In this document: in pieces, positions 1 through 4,560 of the stretch
Layout: each line of letters opens with the position of its first letter
Numbering within the stretch: the first letter of the stretch is position 1
DNA from: Flavisolibacter nicotianae
GTDB lineage: Bacteria > Bacteroidota > Bacteroidia > Chitinophagales > Chitinophagaceae
Assembly (NCBI RefSeq): GCF_003628535.1
Contig: NZ_RBCI01000005.1
Coordinates: forward strand, 1 to 64,000
DNA: 64,000 nt
Direction: 5' to 3'
The notes under the pieces: generated by a model
Told to the model about the DNA's origin: nothing
Database searches by the model: none
What the model saw: only the letters and a program-made list of their open reading frames with translations
Position numbers and translations under genes: made by a program

Positions 1-129
1 TTACGAGCAAAAGGAAAAACAGGAAAACAGGGACTGATTGCGGTATGCAATAAACTCCTGAAACAGGTCTTTGCCGTCATGAAAAACAACACTCTTTACC
101 AACCCAACTACTGCTCGGCAAAACCCTGA
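1..129 (+). CDS. IS110-family transposase, C-terminal fragment
   Basis: Reading frame 1 is open from the window edge to a TGA at 127-129 and gives 42 residues. The stretch NKLLKQVFAVMKNNTLY, preceded by a basic RAKGKTGK segment, matches the C-terminal end of Bacteroidota IS110-family (DEDD) transposases, which close with a conserved helix of the form VxNKLLxQxFAVxK. The catalytic N-terminal part lies outside the window. The gene runs toward the minus-strand cassette array, and its end abuts the half attC site of the peptidase E cassette. The family call rests on a short tail, so it is good but not certain. Confidence 0.72.
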   Translation, partial: LRAKGKTGKQGLIAVCNKLLKQVFAVMKNNTLYQPNYCSAKP

Positions 130-150
130 AAATTTATTTGGTTTTTCGCA
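1..150 (+). mobile_element. Right part of an IS110-family element, inserted in an attC site
   Basis: The transposase tail ends at 129 and the 5' half of an attC site, read on the minus strand, starts at 165. The missing second half of that attC and the abrupt start of transposase coding sequence suggest that the element sits inside the site. The exact boundary within about 130-155 cannot be fixed from one end, because IS110 elements have no or short terminal repeats. Members of the related IS1111-attC group are known to target integron attC sites, which fits this position. The boundary coordinate is an estimate. Confidence 0.55.
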
Positions 151-165
151 CAGTTCATGTTAGCT
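135..165 (-). repeat. Half attC site of the peptidase E cassette
   Basis: On the minus strand AGCTAAC (165-159) is an R''-type core and contains the TAA stop of the peptidase E gene. The ten bases ATCAGCTAAC (168-159) are the exact reverse complement of the ten bases that begin this cassette at 828-819. That identity between cassette start and own R'' site is what a circularised integron cassette requires. The following ATGAACTGTGCG would be the L'' arm. No complementary arm follows; instead the IS110 transposase end is met, so the site looks split. Confidence 0.65.
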
Positions 166-792
166 GATGTTTTCAATTGCAATGATCTCTCCGTCTCTTA
201 AGGCTTTAAACAATACTTTATTGTCTATGCAATACTGTATGGCTTTACCGGTATCTTCTGACTCAGGGTGGGCTGAATCATAATGCGGCAGAAACTCGTA
301 ATCAAAGAAACCAAGCCCTTCCCAGATAGTTTCTTGTATTCCTGGATACGGAAAGTCGGTAGGCGTATCTACTAAACGTGAAGTGCGGATGGATTTGGAC
401 AGCACACAGATGCCAGCACTGTAACCTGCATATAAAAAGTTGCTTTTCTGGGAGAGTTCTTTGATAATGACATCAAAGCCACTAAGGCGCATCGCCTGCC
501 GCAGCACAAAGGTGTTGCCACCACTGACCCAAACACCTCCCAACGTGTTAAGTTTACTCCGCAATGCCTCTTCTTGATGAAAATAGTCTTTCAGATCTAT
601 TACTTCTGCATCAAAGCCCAACTGGTTTAACCGCTGGATTTCTTCAGTTTGGGTGACCCGCTTCCTTGCAGGATCTGCTGCCGTAAAATCCCGTGCATTA
701 ATGATATGCCCGATTTTGCGGTTGACGGGTATCATTGACTGTAACTTATCAATACAATTGCCAAACTTGTAAGATGATAAATAGCATTTCAT
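160..792 (-). CDS. Peptidase E-like protein (family S51)
   Basis: This 210-residue protein has the class I glutamine-amidotransferase-like fold of family S51 peptidases, which cleave Asp-X dipeptides or act on related small peptides in the cytoplasm. Visible motifs are VWVSGGNT (88-95), the nucleophile elbow GYSAG (123-127, Ser125 as nucleophile) and FLPHYDSAHPES (167-178), where the catalytic His is expected. Its length is close to the usual 205-235. The ATG lies only 35 nt after the cassette start core and the TAA lies inside the next core, so the gene fills its integron-type cassette almost completely. There is no visible promoter inside the cassette. Substrate specificity cannot be told. 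Confidence 0.85.
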   Translation of the reverse strand: MKCYLSSYKFGNCIDKLQSMIPVNRKIGHIINARDFTAADPARKRVTQTEEIQRLNQLGFDAEVIDLKDYFHQEEALRSKLNTLGGVWVSGGNTFVLRQAMRLSGFDVIIKELSQKSNFLYAGYSAGICVLSKSIRTSRLVDTPTDFPYPGIQETIWEGLGFFDYEFLPHYDSAHPESEDTGKAIQYCIDNKVLFKALRDGEIIAIENIS

Positions 793-821
793 AGAATGAT
801 CGGCTTTAGAGGTGAAATATC

Positions 822-955
822 AGCTAACGTTGAGGGCTTTGCGTTCGTGTGGGCATTTATAGAACGTCAGCCTTGGATAAAGATATACAGCTCAATTGGA
901 AATATTTGTTCAGCCTATGTTGGTTAGCCCACATGACGCAAAACCAATGTTATGT
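822..955 (-). repeat. attC-like recombination site 2 (end of DUF4145 cassette)
   Basis: An imperfect inverted repeat of 134 nt. On the minus strand it opens with core ACATAAC (955-949) and closes with core GTTAGCT (828-822). The arms, for example TTTGCGTCATGTGGGC against its partner near 838-855, pair with a few mismatches and with extra unpaired bases on one side only, as in integron attC sites. GCCACATAAC (958-949) is the exact reverse complement of the first ten bases of the DUF4145 cassette (1646-1637). The DUF4145 TAA stop lies in the core. The length and layout fit the long attC class. Confidence 0.8.
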
Positions 956-1645
956 GGCGTTATTTCCTTTGTCTTTTAACTTCTTAAGTCGTTGTAGAAG
1001 ATTGTCATACTGGTATACGGCTTTCAATATTTCTTTCGCAAACTCTAATGAGACTTCAATTTCTTCTTTCCCAATTTCGCTAAAAGTCTGAGCTTCTATG
1101 TGCGCAGCATCATTCCCTAAAAGCCTTAGTTCATTCATTCCATTCAATAACTCCTGAGGTATTAATATTTTCCCGCCCAAGTCTTGAAGCTTTTTAAAAA
1201 GATTGTTTCCAGTAGCCCCACGTTCGATGCATATTTCTTCAAGTGTCTTTCTAATCATGATAGCGGAAGCAATGAAACAAGAGTTTGAATGACATTTAAT
1301 TGCTTCTTCAAATGCGTTCAAAACTTTTTCTGGAATATTTTCTTTGTCAAATGGTATCGTTTCACTCGGTGAAGTCAGTAAGATATTTCTATTGTCGTCC
1401 GAAATGAAGAACAAATGCCCTTGACATTTTTCATTAGGGCATTTTCTTATTCCTAAATAATTGACAGGGTATTCACCACTACTGCCTGCACGTCTCGTCC
1501 AAGTGTAGACATCTTGAAGTCCAACCTGTAAGAATGTGCCGTGGTGTCCACAGTGAGGACAACGTGTAGCAATATTTGTCGTTTTGTTACTTCCTATTTT
1601 GTCTAACGTTATTTTCATGATTGGTCTCCTTAAAATGCCACATAA
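828..1645 (-). mobile_element. Integron-type gene cassette carrying DUF4145
   Basis: The interval between two predicted crossover points (G^TT in cores at 1646/1645 and 828/827) measures 818 bp and contains a single minus-strand gene plus its own attC-like site at the 3' end. Gene orientation relative to the attC (stop codon next to R'') is the standard one. The gene starts 28 nt inside the cassette, leaving no room for a full promoter. These are seen in the sequence; mobility is inferred from the cassette architecture. Confidence 0.78.
950..1618 (-). CDS. DUF4145 domain protein with N-terminal zinc ribbon
   Basis: The 222-residue protein begins with a likely zinc ribbon (CPHC at 20-23, CPNEKC at 60-65) followed by a helical DUF4145 domain (about 105-205) with the typical LLGNDAAH element. 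DUF4145 domains occur in stand-alone proteins and in restriction or defence-associated proteins, but no enzymatic role is established. The ATG at 1618 was chosen over an in-frame upstream ATG at 1738 because it is preceded by a clear AGGAG site (unusual in this window) and because the upstream codons would run through the attC of the preceding cassette. The stop codon is inside the next attC core. Function is unknown; a defence role is only a guess from context. Confidence 0.82.
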   Translation of the reverse strand: MKITLDKIGSNKTTNIATRCPHCGHHGTFLQVGLQDVYTWTRRAGSSGEYPVNYLGIRKCPNEKCQGHLFFISDDNRNILLTSPSETIPFDKENIPEKVLNAFEEAIKCHSNSCFIASAIMIRKTLEEICIERGATGNNLFKKLQDLGGKILIPQELLNGMNELRLLGNDAAHIEAQTFSEIGKEEIEVSLEFAKEILKAVYQYDNLLQRLKKLKDKGNNAT

Positions 1646-1772
1646 CGAACAGCGCTTTGTAAAGGTGGGGAACTTGGAAAACTTCAGCTTCACTTTTGCA
1701 CTGGTGTTGATTATTGTTTTGCTGTTGAAAAGCAGCACGTCTGCCCCACTTCTACAAAGCGACCTGTTGGCT
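1640..1772 (-). repeat. attC-like recombination site 1 (end of HigBA cassette)
   Basis: A 133-nt imperfect inverted repeat. On the minus strand it opens with AGCCAAC (1772-1766) and closes with GTTATGT (1646-1640). The paired arms CGCTTTGTAGAAGTGGGG and CCCCACCTTTACAAAGCG match at 16 of 18 positions and are separated by about 78 nt. Two additional bases on one arm (GT after AACAG) are the kind of extrahelical bases that give attC sites their strand polarity. The reverse complement of its R'' end matches the start of the HigBA cassette at 12 of 13 bases. Confidence 0.8.
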
Positions 1773-1784
1773 GAAGTGCGGTCG

Positions 1785-2141
1785 TCAATAGCTCTGAATG
1801 AGAACGTCAGTTGGGATGCCCAGTGCCTGATGCAGCTGGCGGATCATCTCCAAAGTTAGCTTCCGCTTTTTGCTGAGAATTTCACTGGCCCTGCTTTTCA
1901 GGCCGACCACCTTGGCCAGGTCACTTTGGCTATAACCCAGTTGCTCCATGCGGAATTTGATGGCCTCAATTGGATCAGGATAGCCGATGAGATAATGTTC
2001 CTGCTCGTACTTGTCGATCAGAATGCCCAACACCTCCAGTTCGTCTCCTTCCGGTGTGCCGGGCTTTGCATCAAAAATCACTTCCAGACGGTTCATGGCG
2101 GCTTGGTAGTCTTTTTTTGTTTTTATGGGTTTAATGTCCAT
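1785..2141 (-). CDS. higA: HigA-type antitoxin, HTH regulator
   Basis: A 118-residue antitoxin of the HigA/COG5499 type. Residues about 60-112 form a Cro/CI-like helix-turn-helix (YSQSDLAKVVGLKSRASEIL), and the N-terminal half (DIKPIKTKKDYQAAMNRLE) is the usual toxin-contacting region. It follows the toxin gene with a 5-nt gap, the reversed order (toxin first) that is typical of HigBA. It should neutralise HigB and repress the operon, probably through the palindrome at 2470-2484. The stop codon lies 12 nt before the attC-like site. Family assignment is secure; autoregulation is inferred. Confidence 0.9.
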   Translation of the reverse strand: MDIKPIKTKKDYQAAMNRLEVIFDAKPGTPEGDELEVLGILIDKYEQEHYLIGYPDPIEAIKFRMEQLGYSQSDLAKVVGLKSRASEILSKKRKLTLEMIRQLHQALGIPTDVLIQSY

Positions 2142-2146
2142 TGTGT

Positions 2147-2440
2147 TTAGATTTTTGTTGCGTCAACCTTGTCATACTCGGCATGGGTGCCCACAAAACG
2201 GATCCACACCATCCCGTAAGAATAATTGATTTTCACGATTAGCCGGTAATGGTTGCCTTTGATATTGAACACGACCCGGTTGTCAGCTAAAAAAGAAGCA
2301 CTGGGATAATCCCCTTTAATGTCGTTGGGTCCTTTCCAGCCTGCATCTTCTGCTTCCTGGTACCAGGCTTTAAGCTGCTGTTCGCAGTCAGGATGTTTCT
2401 CCCAAAAGTCGGGCAGTGTCTTTTTGGCTATTACTCGCAA
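2147..2440 (-). CDS. higB: HigB-type toxin, ribosome-dependent mRNA endonuclease
   Basis: A 97-residue RelE-superfamily toxin that cleaves mRNA on translating ribosomes. The segments FWEKHPDCEQQLKAWY, SASFLADNRVVFNIKG, YRLIVKINY and the C-terminal RFVGTHAEYDKVDA are the family signature. I place the start at a TTG at 2440, giving an MRVIAKKTL N-terminus like that of most HigB proteins. An ATG at 2476 is in frame, but it lies inside the operator-like palindrome and upstream of the likely -7 box, so it would not be transcribed from that promoter. It is followed by higA after 5 nt. Confidence in the family is high, in the start moderate. Confidence 0.9.
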   Translation of the reverse strand: MRVIAKKTLPDFWEKHPDCEQQLKAWYQEAEDAGWKGPNDIKGDYPSASFLADNRVVFNIKGNHYRLIVKINYSYGMVWIRFVGTHAEYDKVDATKI

Positions 2441-2453
2441 ATCGTCTTTTTGC

Positions 2454-2484
2454 CAAAGATAAAGAAAAGTTCCCAAAATGGGAA
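2454..2484 (-). promoter_or_regulatory. higBA promoter and candidate HigA operator
   Basis: On the minus strand TATCTTTG (2461-2454) matches the Bacteroidota -7 consensus TAnnTTTG and lies 13 nt before the TTG start, implying a very short leader. Just upstream is the perfect inverted repeat TTCCC-N5-GGGAA (2470-2484). A repressor bound there would block the promoter. No convincing -33 TTG was found at the expected distance. Operator function is inferred from position. Confidence 0.6.
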
Positions 2485-2517
2485 ATTCATTTAGAACGGA
2501 GTCTCTTTGAGCATTTC

Positions 2518-2524
2518 AGCCAAC
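2518..2524 (-). other. First cassette core site (array start)
   Basis: GTTGGCT on the minus strand marks the start of the HigBA cassette. The ~100 nt between this core and the kdsA stop (2628) show no attC-like arm partner for the sequence preceding the core. They contain two copies of GTTTCGTT (2591-2598 and 2613-2620, plus strand). This segment could be an attI-like site, an eroded attC or plain chromosomal flank; the sequence does not decide. Confidence 0.55.
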
Positions 2525-2627
2525 AGTAGCATTAACGAATAATCCGAAACTAAACAATTTTCCTAATCAGTTGAGTTCCATCACTTGCCTGTTTCGTTTT
2601 ATTTTTTTAGCAGTTTCGTTTATCCAA

Positions 2628-3452
2628 CTAGCTTGCTACGGCTCTCCGCAATTTCACCAGTTTTGCCAGCAACTCCTCCAGTAAGTCCAACTTCAGCATA
2701 TTGGCCCCATCACTCAGTGCGCAGGAAGGGTCGGGGTGGGTTTCAATAAATAAACCGTCAGCCCCCGTTGCAATCGCTGCCGAAGCAATCGTACCAATCA
2801 TTTGCGGGTTGCCTCCCGTGACACCGGAAGTCTGGTTTGGCTGCTGCAGGCTGTGTGTGCAGTCCATTACCACGGGAACTCCTGTTTCCCGCATAATCGG
2901 TATGTTGCGATAATCCACCACCAGGTCCTGGTAGCCAAAGGTGGTGCCTCTTTCAGTCAGCATCACTTGATCGTTGCCCGTATTCCGGATCTTTTCCACG
3001 GCAAACTTCATCGAAGCGCCGCTAAGAAATTGCCCTTTCTTCACATTCACGATCTTGCCGGTTTCGCCGGCGGCAAGGAGCAGTTCGGTCTGGCGGCAAA
3101 GGAAGGCCGGTATTTGGAGGATATCCACAAAATTCGCGGCCATTGCCGCCTCCTGCTCGGAATGGATATCGGTCGTGCACGGAAGGGAAAAATGGCTGGC
3201 CACTTTTTGCAAAATTTCAAGACCTTTCTCGTCACCCACGCCGGTAAACGAGGTGGCGCTGGTGCGGTTGGCTTTCCGGTAGGAGGCCTTCAAAATATAC
3301 GGAATGTCGTAGGTTTTGCAGAGGGCTGAAACTTTTTCTGCGACTTCAAATACCAGTTCCTCGCTTTCGACCACGCAGGGGCCGGCGATCAGGAAAAACG
3401 CATTTTTATCGTACTGCTGCTTGCTGAATAAATTTTCCAAAAACGCTGTCAT
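2628..3452 (-). CDS. kdsA: 3-deoxy-8-phosphooctulonate synthase (KDO-8-P synthase)
   Basis: The 274-residue enzyme condenses phosphoenolpyruvate with arabinose 5-phosphate to KDO 8-phosphate, for the lipopolysaccharide inner core. Motifs include FFLIAGPCVVES (19-30), KASYRKANRTS (55-65), GVTGGNPQMIG and FIETHPDPSCALSDG. Cys26 in AGPC marks the metal-dependent class; the metal-independent class has Asn there. The ATG at 3452 was preferred to one at 3479 because it begins close to the usual N-terminus and lies just after a TATCTTCG -7-like box (3464-3457). The gene is the last chromosomal gene before the cassette array and appears monocistronic. Confidence 0.95.
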   Translation of the reverse strand: MTAFLENLFSKQQYDKNAFFLIAGPCVVESEELVFEVAEKVSALCKTYDIPYILKASYRKANRTSATSFTGVGDEKGLEILQKVASHFSLPCTTDIHSEQEAAMAANFVDILQIPAFLCRQTELLLAAGETGKIVNVKKGQFLSGASMKFAVEKIRNTGNDQVMLTERGTTFGYQDLVVDYRNIPIMRETGVPVVMDCTHSLQQPNQTSGVTGGNPQMIGTIASAAIATGADGLFIETHPDPSCALSDGANMLKLDLLEELLAKLVKLRRAVAS

Positions 3453-3594
3453 GCCGCGAAGATATTCCGATGCCGGCAATAAAGAATGCGATCCGTGCCC
3501 AACCGTTCGCTGCCTGCGCCCCGCCAGGGCGAATCAACCCTGAGGATATTTGGCCTTTTTGATTACGTTTGCACCCTTTTAAGCAACGCTTGTT

Positions 3595-4560
3595 ATGGTT
3601 AAAGAACGAATTCTTGTGATCGGTGCGTCGGGGCAGATCGGTGTGGAACTGACGCTAGCCCTTCGAAAAATTTACGGCGAAGCGAATGTGATCGCATCCG
3701 ATCTCCGCGAACAAAATCCCCTGCTCCAGGGCACGGGGCCCTATGTGAGCCTCGATGTGATGAATAAGGAAATGCTCCATGTGCAGGTGATCCGGCAGGG
3801 AGTGACACAGATCTACCTGCTGGCCGCAATCCTTTCTGCAACCGGGGAGAAAAACCCTGGGCTTGCCTGGCACCTGAACATGCAAGGCCTTTTAAATGTG
3901 CTCGACATCGCCCGGGAAGAAAAGCTGCACAGGGTGTACTGGCCCAGCAGCATTGCGGTGTTCGGACCAACATCACCCAAAAGGGATTGCCCGCAAAAAA
4001 CCATCATTGAACCCACGACCGTATACGGCATCAGCAAATATGCCGGGGAATTCTGGTGCAATTATTATTTCAACAAATTCGGTGTGGACGTGCGCAGCCT
4101 GCGCTACCCGGGTTTGATCTCGTATAAATCGGCGCCGGGTGGCGGCACCACGGATTACGCCGTCGAGATTTTTCACGAAGCCCTTGAAGAAAAACACTAC
4201 AACTGCTTTCTGGAAAAAGATACCTACCTGCCCATGATGTACATGCCGGACGCCATCCGCGCCACCATCGAGCTGATGGAAGCGCCAAGCGAAAACATCA
4301 AAGAGCGAACATCGTATAACCTATCCGCCATCTCGTTTTCTCCCGAAGAAATTGCGGCCGAGATCAAAAAACACATACCGGAGTTTGGTATCACCTATGC
4401 GCCCGACTACCGGCAAACCATTGCCAACAGTTGGCCGCAAAGCATCGACGATTCGGTAGCACGGCAGGACTGGGGCTGGAAACACGAATACGACCTTGCC
4501 GCCATGACCAAAGACATGCTGGCTAACCTGGCCGTTGAGAAAAAAATGGAAGCCAGTTAG
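3595..4560 (+). CDS. NAD-dependent L-threonine 3-dehydrogenase, SDR type
   Basis: A 321-residue extended short-chain dehydrogenase of the UDP-galactose-epimerase-like group. The Rossmann motif VIGASGQIG (8-16) and the catalytic YGISK (about 144-148) with its upstream Ser pair are present, and the length matches SDR-type threonine dehydrogenases, which oxidise threonine to 2-amino-3-ketobutyrate. PGGGTTDYAVEIFHEAL and the C-terminal DYRQTIANSWPQSIDD are typical of this subgroup. TACGTTTG (3564-3571) is a likely -7 box. A strong terminator follows. A 2-amino-3-ketobutyrate CoA ligase gene, the usual partner, is not in the window. Epimerase activity on another substrate is a less likely alternative. 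Confidence 0.85.
   Translation: MVKERILVIGASGQIGVELTLALRKIYGEANVIASDLREQNPLLQGTGPYVSLDVMNKEMLHVQVIRQGVTQIYLLAAILSATGEKNPGLAWHLNMQGLLNVLDIAREEKLHRVYWPSSIAVFGPTSPKRDCPQKTIIEPTTVYGISKYAGEFWCNYYFNKFGVDVRSLRYPGLISYKSAPGGGTTDYAVEIFHEALEEKHYNCFLEKDTYLPMMYMPDAIRATIELMEAPSENIKERTSYNLSAISFSPEEIAAEIKKHIPEFGITYAPDYRQTIANSWPQSIDDSVARQDWGWKHEYDLAAMTKDMLANLAVEKKMEAS

Follow-up and report, generated by a model that had tools for sequence, protein, structure and literature searches.

The window analysed in this study is a stretch of 64,000 bases of Flavisolibacter nicotianae DNA, bases 1-64000 of contig C35 (NZ_RBCI01000005.1) in a genome of 6.09 Mb assembled into 70 contigs. Its first 2.5 kb carry an array of gene cassettes resembling those of integrons, each cassette consisting of a gene or a gene pair followed by a site resembling attC, the recombination site of integron cassettes. 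The subject of this report is this array, together with the family of tyrosine recombinases found to be linked to arrays of the same kind. The window contains the proximal end of the array, namely its first three cassettes (HigBA, DUF4145 and peptidase E), which start at the GTT at 2524, 1646 and 828, respectively. Since window position 1 is also the contig end, the array is cut by the assembly. The features, in the direction of the array, are as follows.

2628 to 3479, minus strand: kdsA (DAHP synthetase I family, Pfam), a flanking chromosomal gene outside the array.
2525 to 2546, minus strand: weak attI-like sequence bounding the array on the upstream side, some 100 bases beyond the stop codon of kdsA.
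1647 to 2524, minus strand: cassette 1, ending in its site and encoding a HigB toxin (2147-2476) and a HigA-type antitoxin (1785-2141), both identified by Pfam.
1639 to 1773, minus strand: attC-like site of cassette 1 (130.6 bits, a training site of the model described below), with a close copy at C4:17772-17906.
829 to 1646, minus strand: cassette 2, ending in its site and encoding a DUF4145 protein (950-1618; Pfam).
821 to 956, minus strand: attC-like site of cassette 2 (95.9 bits, a training site).
156 to 828, minus strand: cassette 3, encoding peptidase E (160-792; Pfam); of its site, the R'' box is present and the remainder interrupted.
1 to 155, plus strand: end of a repeated, insertion-sequence-like element (reading frame 1-129), adjoining the R'' box of cassette 3.

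A preceding sequence-only reading had described this region as three minus-strand cassettes separated by two imperfect inverted repeats, and both the cassettes and the repeats were found in place. A BLAST search with the two window repeats identified relatives elsewhere in the genome. A covariance model was constructed from 12 trimmed sites, including both window sites, whose ends were set by hand and which were aligned and folded to give 17 base pairs. The scores of the two window repeats in this model are those of training sites. Against the whole genome, the model gave 71 matches at E ≤ 0.1, of which 66 were at E ≤ 1e-4. Most of them lay in same-strand runs on C4, C22, C25-C29, C35 and C46, in addition to single sites. 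Fifty-three cassettes could be delimited between neighboring sites, with a median length of 756 bp, and the leading open reading frame (ORF) was on the sense strand in 50 and not in 3.

The base pairing of these sites was assessed on 120 sites (119 distinct) located around related integrases. Standard pairs occupied 94.1% of the cells in the 17 pairs, as compared with 68.5% when partners were shuffled and 32.5-50.1% when partners were slid by 1-3 columns, in an alignment that had been fitted to the structure. Two-sided changes were observed in 462 cells of the 17 pairs among the 119 distinct sites. Folding of the window sites one at a time, also proposed in the sequence-only reading, was unremarkable on both strands, with z values of -1.1 to -1.8. 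The structural signal is the covariation across sites, not the single folds, and it is through this pairing that the sites display the attC feature of an imperfect inverted repeat able to fold, with paired R and L boxes. We also noticed a second class of sites of about 195-200 bases besides those of about 135 bases, matching the ends of the 135-base model (L026:9649-9844, L031:1607-1804, L104:11206-11404 and others).

Excision and insertion of cassettes as circles at G|TT predict that the start of each cassette agrees with its own R'' box, so such agreement is a signature of a circular form. The sequence-only reading had relied on this complementarity; when recomputed, it comprised an unbroken run of 10 bases, and 12 of 13 positions, in each of the three window cassettes. 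Across the genome, the 8 bases after GTT matched the reverse complement of the cassette's own R'' at 5.4 positions on average (48 pairs), and the same R'' matched the start of the next cassette at 2.8 positions (46 pairs). The total agreement of the 48 cassettes was 260, exceeding all of 10,000 permutations (mean 146.6, maximum 182). These 48 are the neighbor pairs that could be anchored, and some low-scoring pairs that look mis-anchored were kept. Of 69 internal cassettes in other organisms, 58 had their best-matching start at the site before them, the mean being 6.5 matches of 7. These data suggest that the cassettes pass through a circular form, as had been proposed for those in the window.

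The sequence-only reading had also regarded the array as integrase-less, a CALIN (cluster of attC sites lacking an integron integrase). As regards the integrase, this is accurate for the window, which encodes none of the array-linked kind. Its two complete sites are 683 bases apart, a CALIN being defined by two or more attC sites in 4 kb with no integrase close by, but the contig stops within the array. The absence of an integrase does not hold for the genome. In this genome (estimated to be 100% complete), nothing exceeded the cut-off of TIGR02249, the model of integron integrases. The strongest sub-threshold matches were three intact tyrosine recombinases, C14:816-2039, C4:6776-8116 and C2:764226-765398, belonging to the family that heads arrays. 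A fragment at C4:58937-59164 was also among the sub-threshold matches.

We characterized this family using the best 80 of 204 relatives of the three integrases, taken from species genomes. Judged by record titles, the hosts include many Chitinophagaceae, as well as Cytophagales, Sphingobacteriaceae, Saprospiraceae, Flavobacteriales, Ignavibacteria and a few others, and the family is mainly one of Bacteroidota. Its members have about 340-450 residues, usually with an N-terminal domain containing a W-x6-W motif, followed by an Xer-like core without the additional domain specific to the integron integrase IntI (hereafter, patchless). The motif occurred within the first 140 residues in 75 of the 80 members, in none of 31 IntIs and in none of 24 Xer proteins, the comparison proteins having been cut back to 40 residues ahead of their BLAST match. 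Arg254, Lys279, His346, Arg349, His372 and Tyr381 were invariant in all 36 aligned members, and are taken here as the catalytic residues, so that the array-linked integrases possess the catalytic set of tyrosine recombinases. The closest NCBIfam profile of the first member scanned was archaeal XerA. The N-terminal domain had no convincing relative of solved structure (10 matches, best E 0.18) and only weak DUF5710 matches in 14 of 36 members (best E 1.8e-4); it may resemble the HARP domain.

Alignment with the solved structure of IntI4 (2a3v) revealed that the family has 25 residues in place of the 65 residues 181-245 of IntI4. All 27 members compared had 58-62 residues between the Lys motif and the His-Arg motif, whereas each of 31 IntIs had 100; in 24 XerC/XerD proteins there were 60-70. 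The array-linked integrases are thus devoid of the IntI-specific domain. This domain has served to recognize integron integrases: for Roy, Partridge and Hall (PMC7784347) it is their distinguishing feature, with a connection to single-strand binding; in a survey of 2008 (PMC2426708) integrases were selected by it; and archaeal IntIs reportedly possess it (PMC9668308). Since this domain is missing from the linked integrase, the system of the window is not an ordinary integron, while the integron-type character of the cassettes, the other part of the original description, is supported. In a tree containing only IntI and Xer proteins, the family formed one side of a branch (support 92) and grouped with IntI against Xer (99). 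When phage and plasmid integrases were added, it fell among them (83), and a member from a Chryseobacterium plasmid (L131) left the clade. In topology tests, a clade with IntI (approximately unbiased test, p 0.25) was not rejected, and neither was monophyly of the family (p 0.65).

These results bear on the possibility that the array is an ordinary CALIN, made of cassettes of a classical IntI integron whose integrase has been lost or lies in an unassembled part. The window resembles a CALIN in that no integrase adjoins its two complete, closely spaced sites, and an assembly of 70 contigs, in which contig ends break the array, could conceal a gene. However, array-linked integrases are present in this very genome, and the array runs into the contig end. 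Moreover, IntI scored over the cut-off neither in this genome nor in any of 117 genomes of the same family, 64 of which carry sites, in a search whose built-in control genomes gave no match either. In the control searches, a plasmid intI1 scored 507 bits and 105 of 395 genomes of the phylum exceeded the cut-off, only one of these being nearer than phylum level (G150, of the same order). Four genomes carrying the patchless integrase had no IntI. A class 1 integron stretch, taken as a yardstick, gave no match to the site model. With the patchless family linked to the arrays as described next, we regard an ordinary CALIN as very improbable.

The linkage was examined by searching the surroundings of the 80 integrases (533 kb upstream and 234 kb downstream) with the site model. 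Among the 120 site hits, 113 were downstream on the strand of the integrase, 5 downstream on the other strand and 2 upstream. A downstream same-strand site was present at 44 of the 80 loci, and at 38 of the 47 loci with at least 1500 bases of downstream sequence; 27 of the 36 siteless loci had less than 1500 bases. Many integrase contigs stop a few hundred bases past the gene (L051-L130), as expected if repeated sites break assemblies. The 66-kb Chryseobacterium plasmid NZ_CP041688.1 carries the integrase and seven site hits (E 5e-7 to 0.016) over a 31-kb stretch, all seven downstream of the integrase and on its strand; therefore, the system may also travel on plasmids. In the 117 same-family genomes, 64 had sites, 40 had the N-terminal domain of the integrase and 36 had both (Fisher p 1.4e-8).

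The start of the first cassette behind the integrase could be placed at 45 loci by its agreement with the first R'', and 37 of these boundaries were kept for motif analysis. Eight were excluded: six with 5/7 matches or fewer, L064 for its distance, and that of the Chryseobacterium plasmid, which matched at 7/7 and yet lacked an attI-like motif. The 37 boundaries share a left arm, roughly TGCGTATATTTA..|GTT, located 92 to 1441 bases past the integrase (less than 600 in 34 of 37). GTT was followed by a purine in 37 of 37, with variable positions thereafter, the core of integrons being GTTRRRY; the non-standard GTT cores noticed in the window are supported. In this genome, the attI-like site lies about 105 (C14) and 153 (C2) bases downstream of the integrase, and in the C14 array the first cassette start is complementary to its own R''. 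A predicted attI-like site thus stands next to the integrase gene, as attI does in integrons. The left arm, as TGCGTATATT, was seen at first-cassette boundaries, and also at the upstream boundaries of L282, L285 and L298.

A second possibility is that XerC/XerD or another recombinase moves the cassettes, the linked integrase being a passenger at the head of the array. The left arm TGCGTATATT may resemble the XerC arm of dif sites; the integrase shares an Xer-like catalytic core and motif spacing with XerC/XerD/XerA and phage-type tyrosine recombinases; and 28 of the 77 genomes without a detected N-terminal domain had site hits. The family differs from those recombinases in its linkage to arrays and in the additional N-terminal motif in 75 of 80 members. 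Its position and strand relative to arrays across many organisms, with the attI-like site between them, argue for an active part in cassette movement, and we consider a passenger role highly unlikely.

To judge the mobility of the cassettes, we compared copies and loci. The HigBA cassette occurs twice in the genome, each copy being 878 bp, with the second at C4:17021-17898 and the homology running from GTT to GTT. The kdsA gene is kept in 16 of 18 same-genus genomes. At seven other same-genus kdsA loci, one of which reaches only about 130 bases downstream, neither a site (E ≤ 1) nor a cassette protein (tblastn E ≤ 1e-5) was found nearby; the three genes are thus not always together at this locus. 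Had related genomes always kept them together, and had the repeats scored as random, the cassette interpretation would have failed according to the sequence-only reading; the outcome favors mobility. A closed same-genus genome contains many single scattered sites. Of 32 sites taken from that genome and from stretches of the window's genome with a single site, 12 had a start matching at 7/8 or better, as compared with a mean of 1.6 and a maximum of 5 for 30 shuffles of R''. This set left out two sites without an AAC anchor and one opposite-strand duplicate, and four or five of its sites belong to an array behind an integrase (L284). The scattered single sites would suit a family of dispersed palindromic repeats without a role in cassettes, a reading that we regard as scarcely credible in view of the agreement between start and own R'' across the gene, both here and in the arrays, the sense-strand leading ORF in 50 of 53 cassettes and the HigBA cassette copied with its GTT ends.

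The boundaries of scattered cassettes were scored against the attI-like motif. With a fixed-spacing matrix, 8 of 18 scattered boundaries were in the top 1% of GTTs. With a second matrix that allowed flexible spacing and omitted three rows judged doubtful or repeated, the top 1% held 10 of 15 scattered starts, a post hoc result because this matrix was built after the first result had been seen. By the second matrix, the boundary in the window itself scores weakly (top 2.7% of GTTs), but the 18 letters at its end are found ahead of a scattered cassette at C24 as well. We infer that the array of the window was probably seeded at a secondary attI-like site beside kdsA.

At the other end of the window, the peptidase E site is broken directly after its R'' box by the repeated element at window 1 to about 155, a probable insertion sequence of which only a C-terminal fragment is visible. 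The same end of this element adjoins the R'' box of a different site, at C29:2990-3181, so that it abuts R'' boxes at two different sites, as if targeting attC-like sites. It may belong to the IS1111-attC group of insertion sequences, which it resembles in this position. An Rfam search of window 1-4000 gave a single match, potC, below threshold.

The cargo is diverse. Pfam matches of 52 cassette proteins fell into 31 families (25 listed), mostly with one match per family, and include toxin-antitoxin, immunity, caspase, cyclase, hydrolase and transposase families. PADLOC matches include PD-Lambda-2 (HigBA), PD-T7-4 (DUF4145), a caspase and a Pycsar-type cyclase; by likeness, some cassettes may thus resemble phage-defence genes.

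Several observations weigh against the view that the patchless integrase operates these arrays. Nine of the 36 loci without a downstream site have at least 1500 bases of downstream sequence. The C4 integrase of this genome has no attI-like site. Five of the 80 family members lack W-x6-W, some of them having arrays. Sites without the detected N-terminal domain (28/77 genomes, as above) and the domain without site hits (4/40) both occur. SOS boxes were not enriched upstream of the integrases: two Bacteroidetes LexA motifs (PMC8565304) were found in 2/80 and 3/80 upstream regions, as compared with shuffled means of 0.7 and 3.7. The weak single-site folding belongs here as well. Finally, of 80 viral loci with related cores, chosen to serve as a negative control, 3 had site hits. 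One of these, L213 from the 170-kb viral contig IMGVR_UViG_3300043411_001575, holds an array of eight site hits (L213:45-8894) by a 298-residue patchless integrase without the N-terminal domain. In this viral array, the agreement of start and own R'' was 7/7 in 4 of 7 neighbor pairs, and the sites are on the strand opposite to the main ORFs, which are putatively methyltransferase-like.

Taken together, these results make it very probable, in our judgment, that the arrays represent a type of integron in its own right, whose integrase is patchless; it would work like an integron while lacking the feature that defines IntI. This interpretation is carried by the cassette anatomy, the circle signature, the base-pair covariation, the integrase linkage, the attI-like site and the GTT-ended duplicate cassette, all established at the level of sequence. 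The system shares with sedentary chromosomal integrons the same-strand cassettes of mostly one ORF, the hairpin sites with R and L arms, the GTT crossover core, the circle signature, the attI-like site by the integrase and one cassette present twice. It differs from them in its integrase, which is without the IntI-specific domain, usually carries an N-terminal W-x6-W, is encoded on the strand of the cassettes with the attI-like site 3' of the gene, and would act on a core that looks like GTTR and not strict GTTRRRY, and in that SOS boxes were not enriched in the 80 upstream regions.

Having the anatomy of an integron, the system most likely also works like one. A tyrosine integrase would cut cassettes out as circles and insert them at G|TT, using as substrates the hairpin-forming attC-like site at each cassette end and the short attI-like site 3' of the integrase gene. 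The reaction would be performed by the family described here, the folded single strand may be the substrate, and the N-terminal domain may stand in for the IntI domain. The array of the window would have arisen by insertion beside kdsA, through an integrase encoded elsewhere in the genome. A bolder hypothesis, which we put forward tentatively and would not yet favor, is that this is a second, separately evolved kind of integron, in which an Xer- or phage-type integrase gained a small N-terminal domain reading folded cassette ends instead of the IntI domain, seeds cassettes at its own attI-like site and at others scattered over Bacteroidia chromosomes, and forms a main gene-capture platform there, unseen by IntI-based surveys.

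Bacteroidota are listed in reviews as integron carriers (PMC8618304). In the IntegronFinder 2.0 paper (PMC9024848), a complete integron is reported for Salinibacter ruber, within Bacteroidetes, the earlier study by its authors having had only cassette-less integrases in that group. We found no description of a patchless integron integrase in the literature searched, which was seen in part, did not extend to preprints and held few subscription papers. A gene-capture system may have been overlooked. With sites in 64 of 117 sampled genomes of one family, such a platform would extend the known range of integrons, and would add a reservoir of mobile cassettes, some of them resembling phage-defence genes. 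It would also make a mechanistic question testable, namely whether the IntI domain is needed for handling folded cassette ends, or whether another domain is sufficient.

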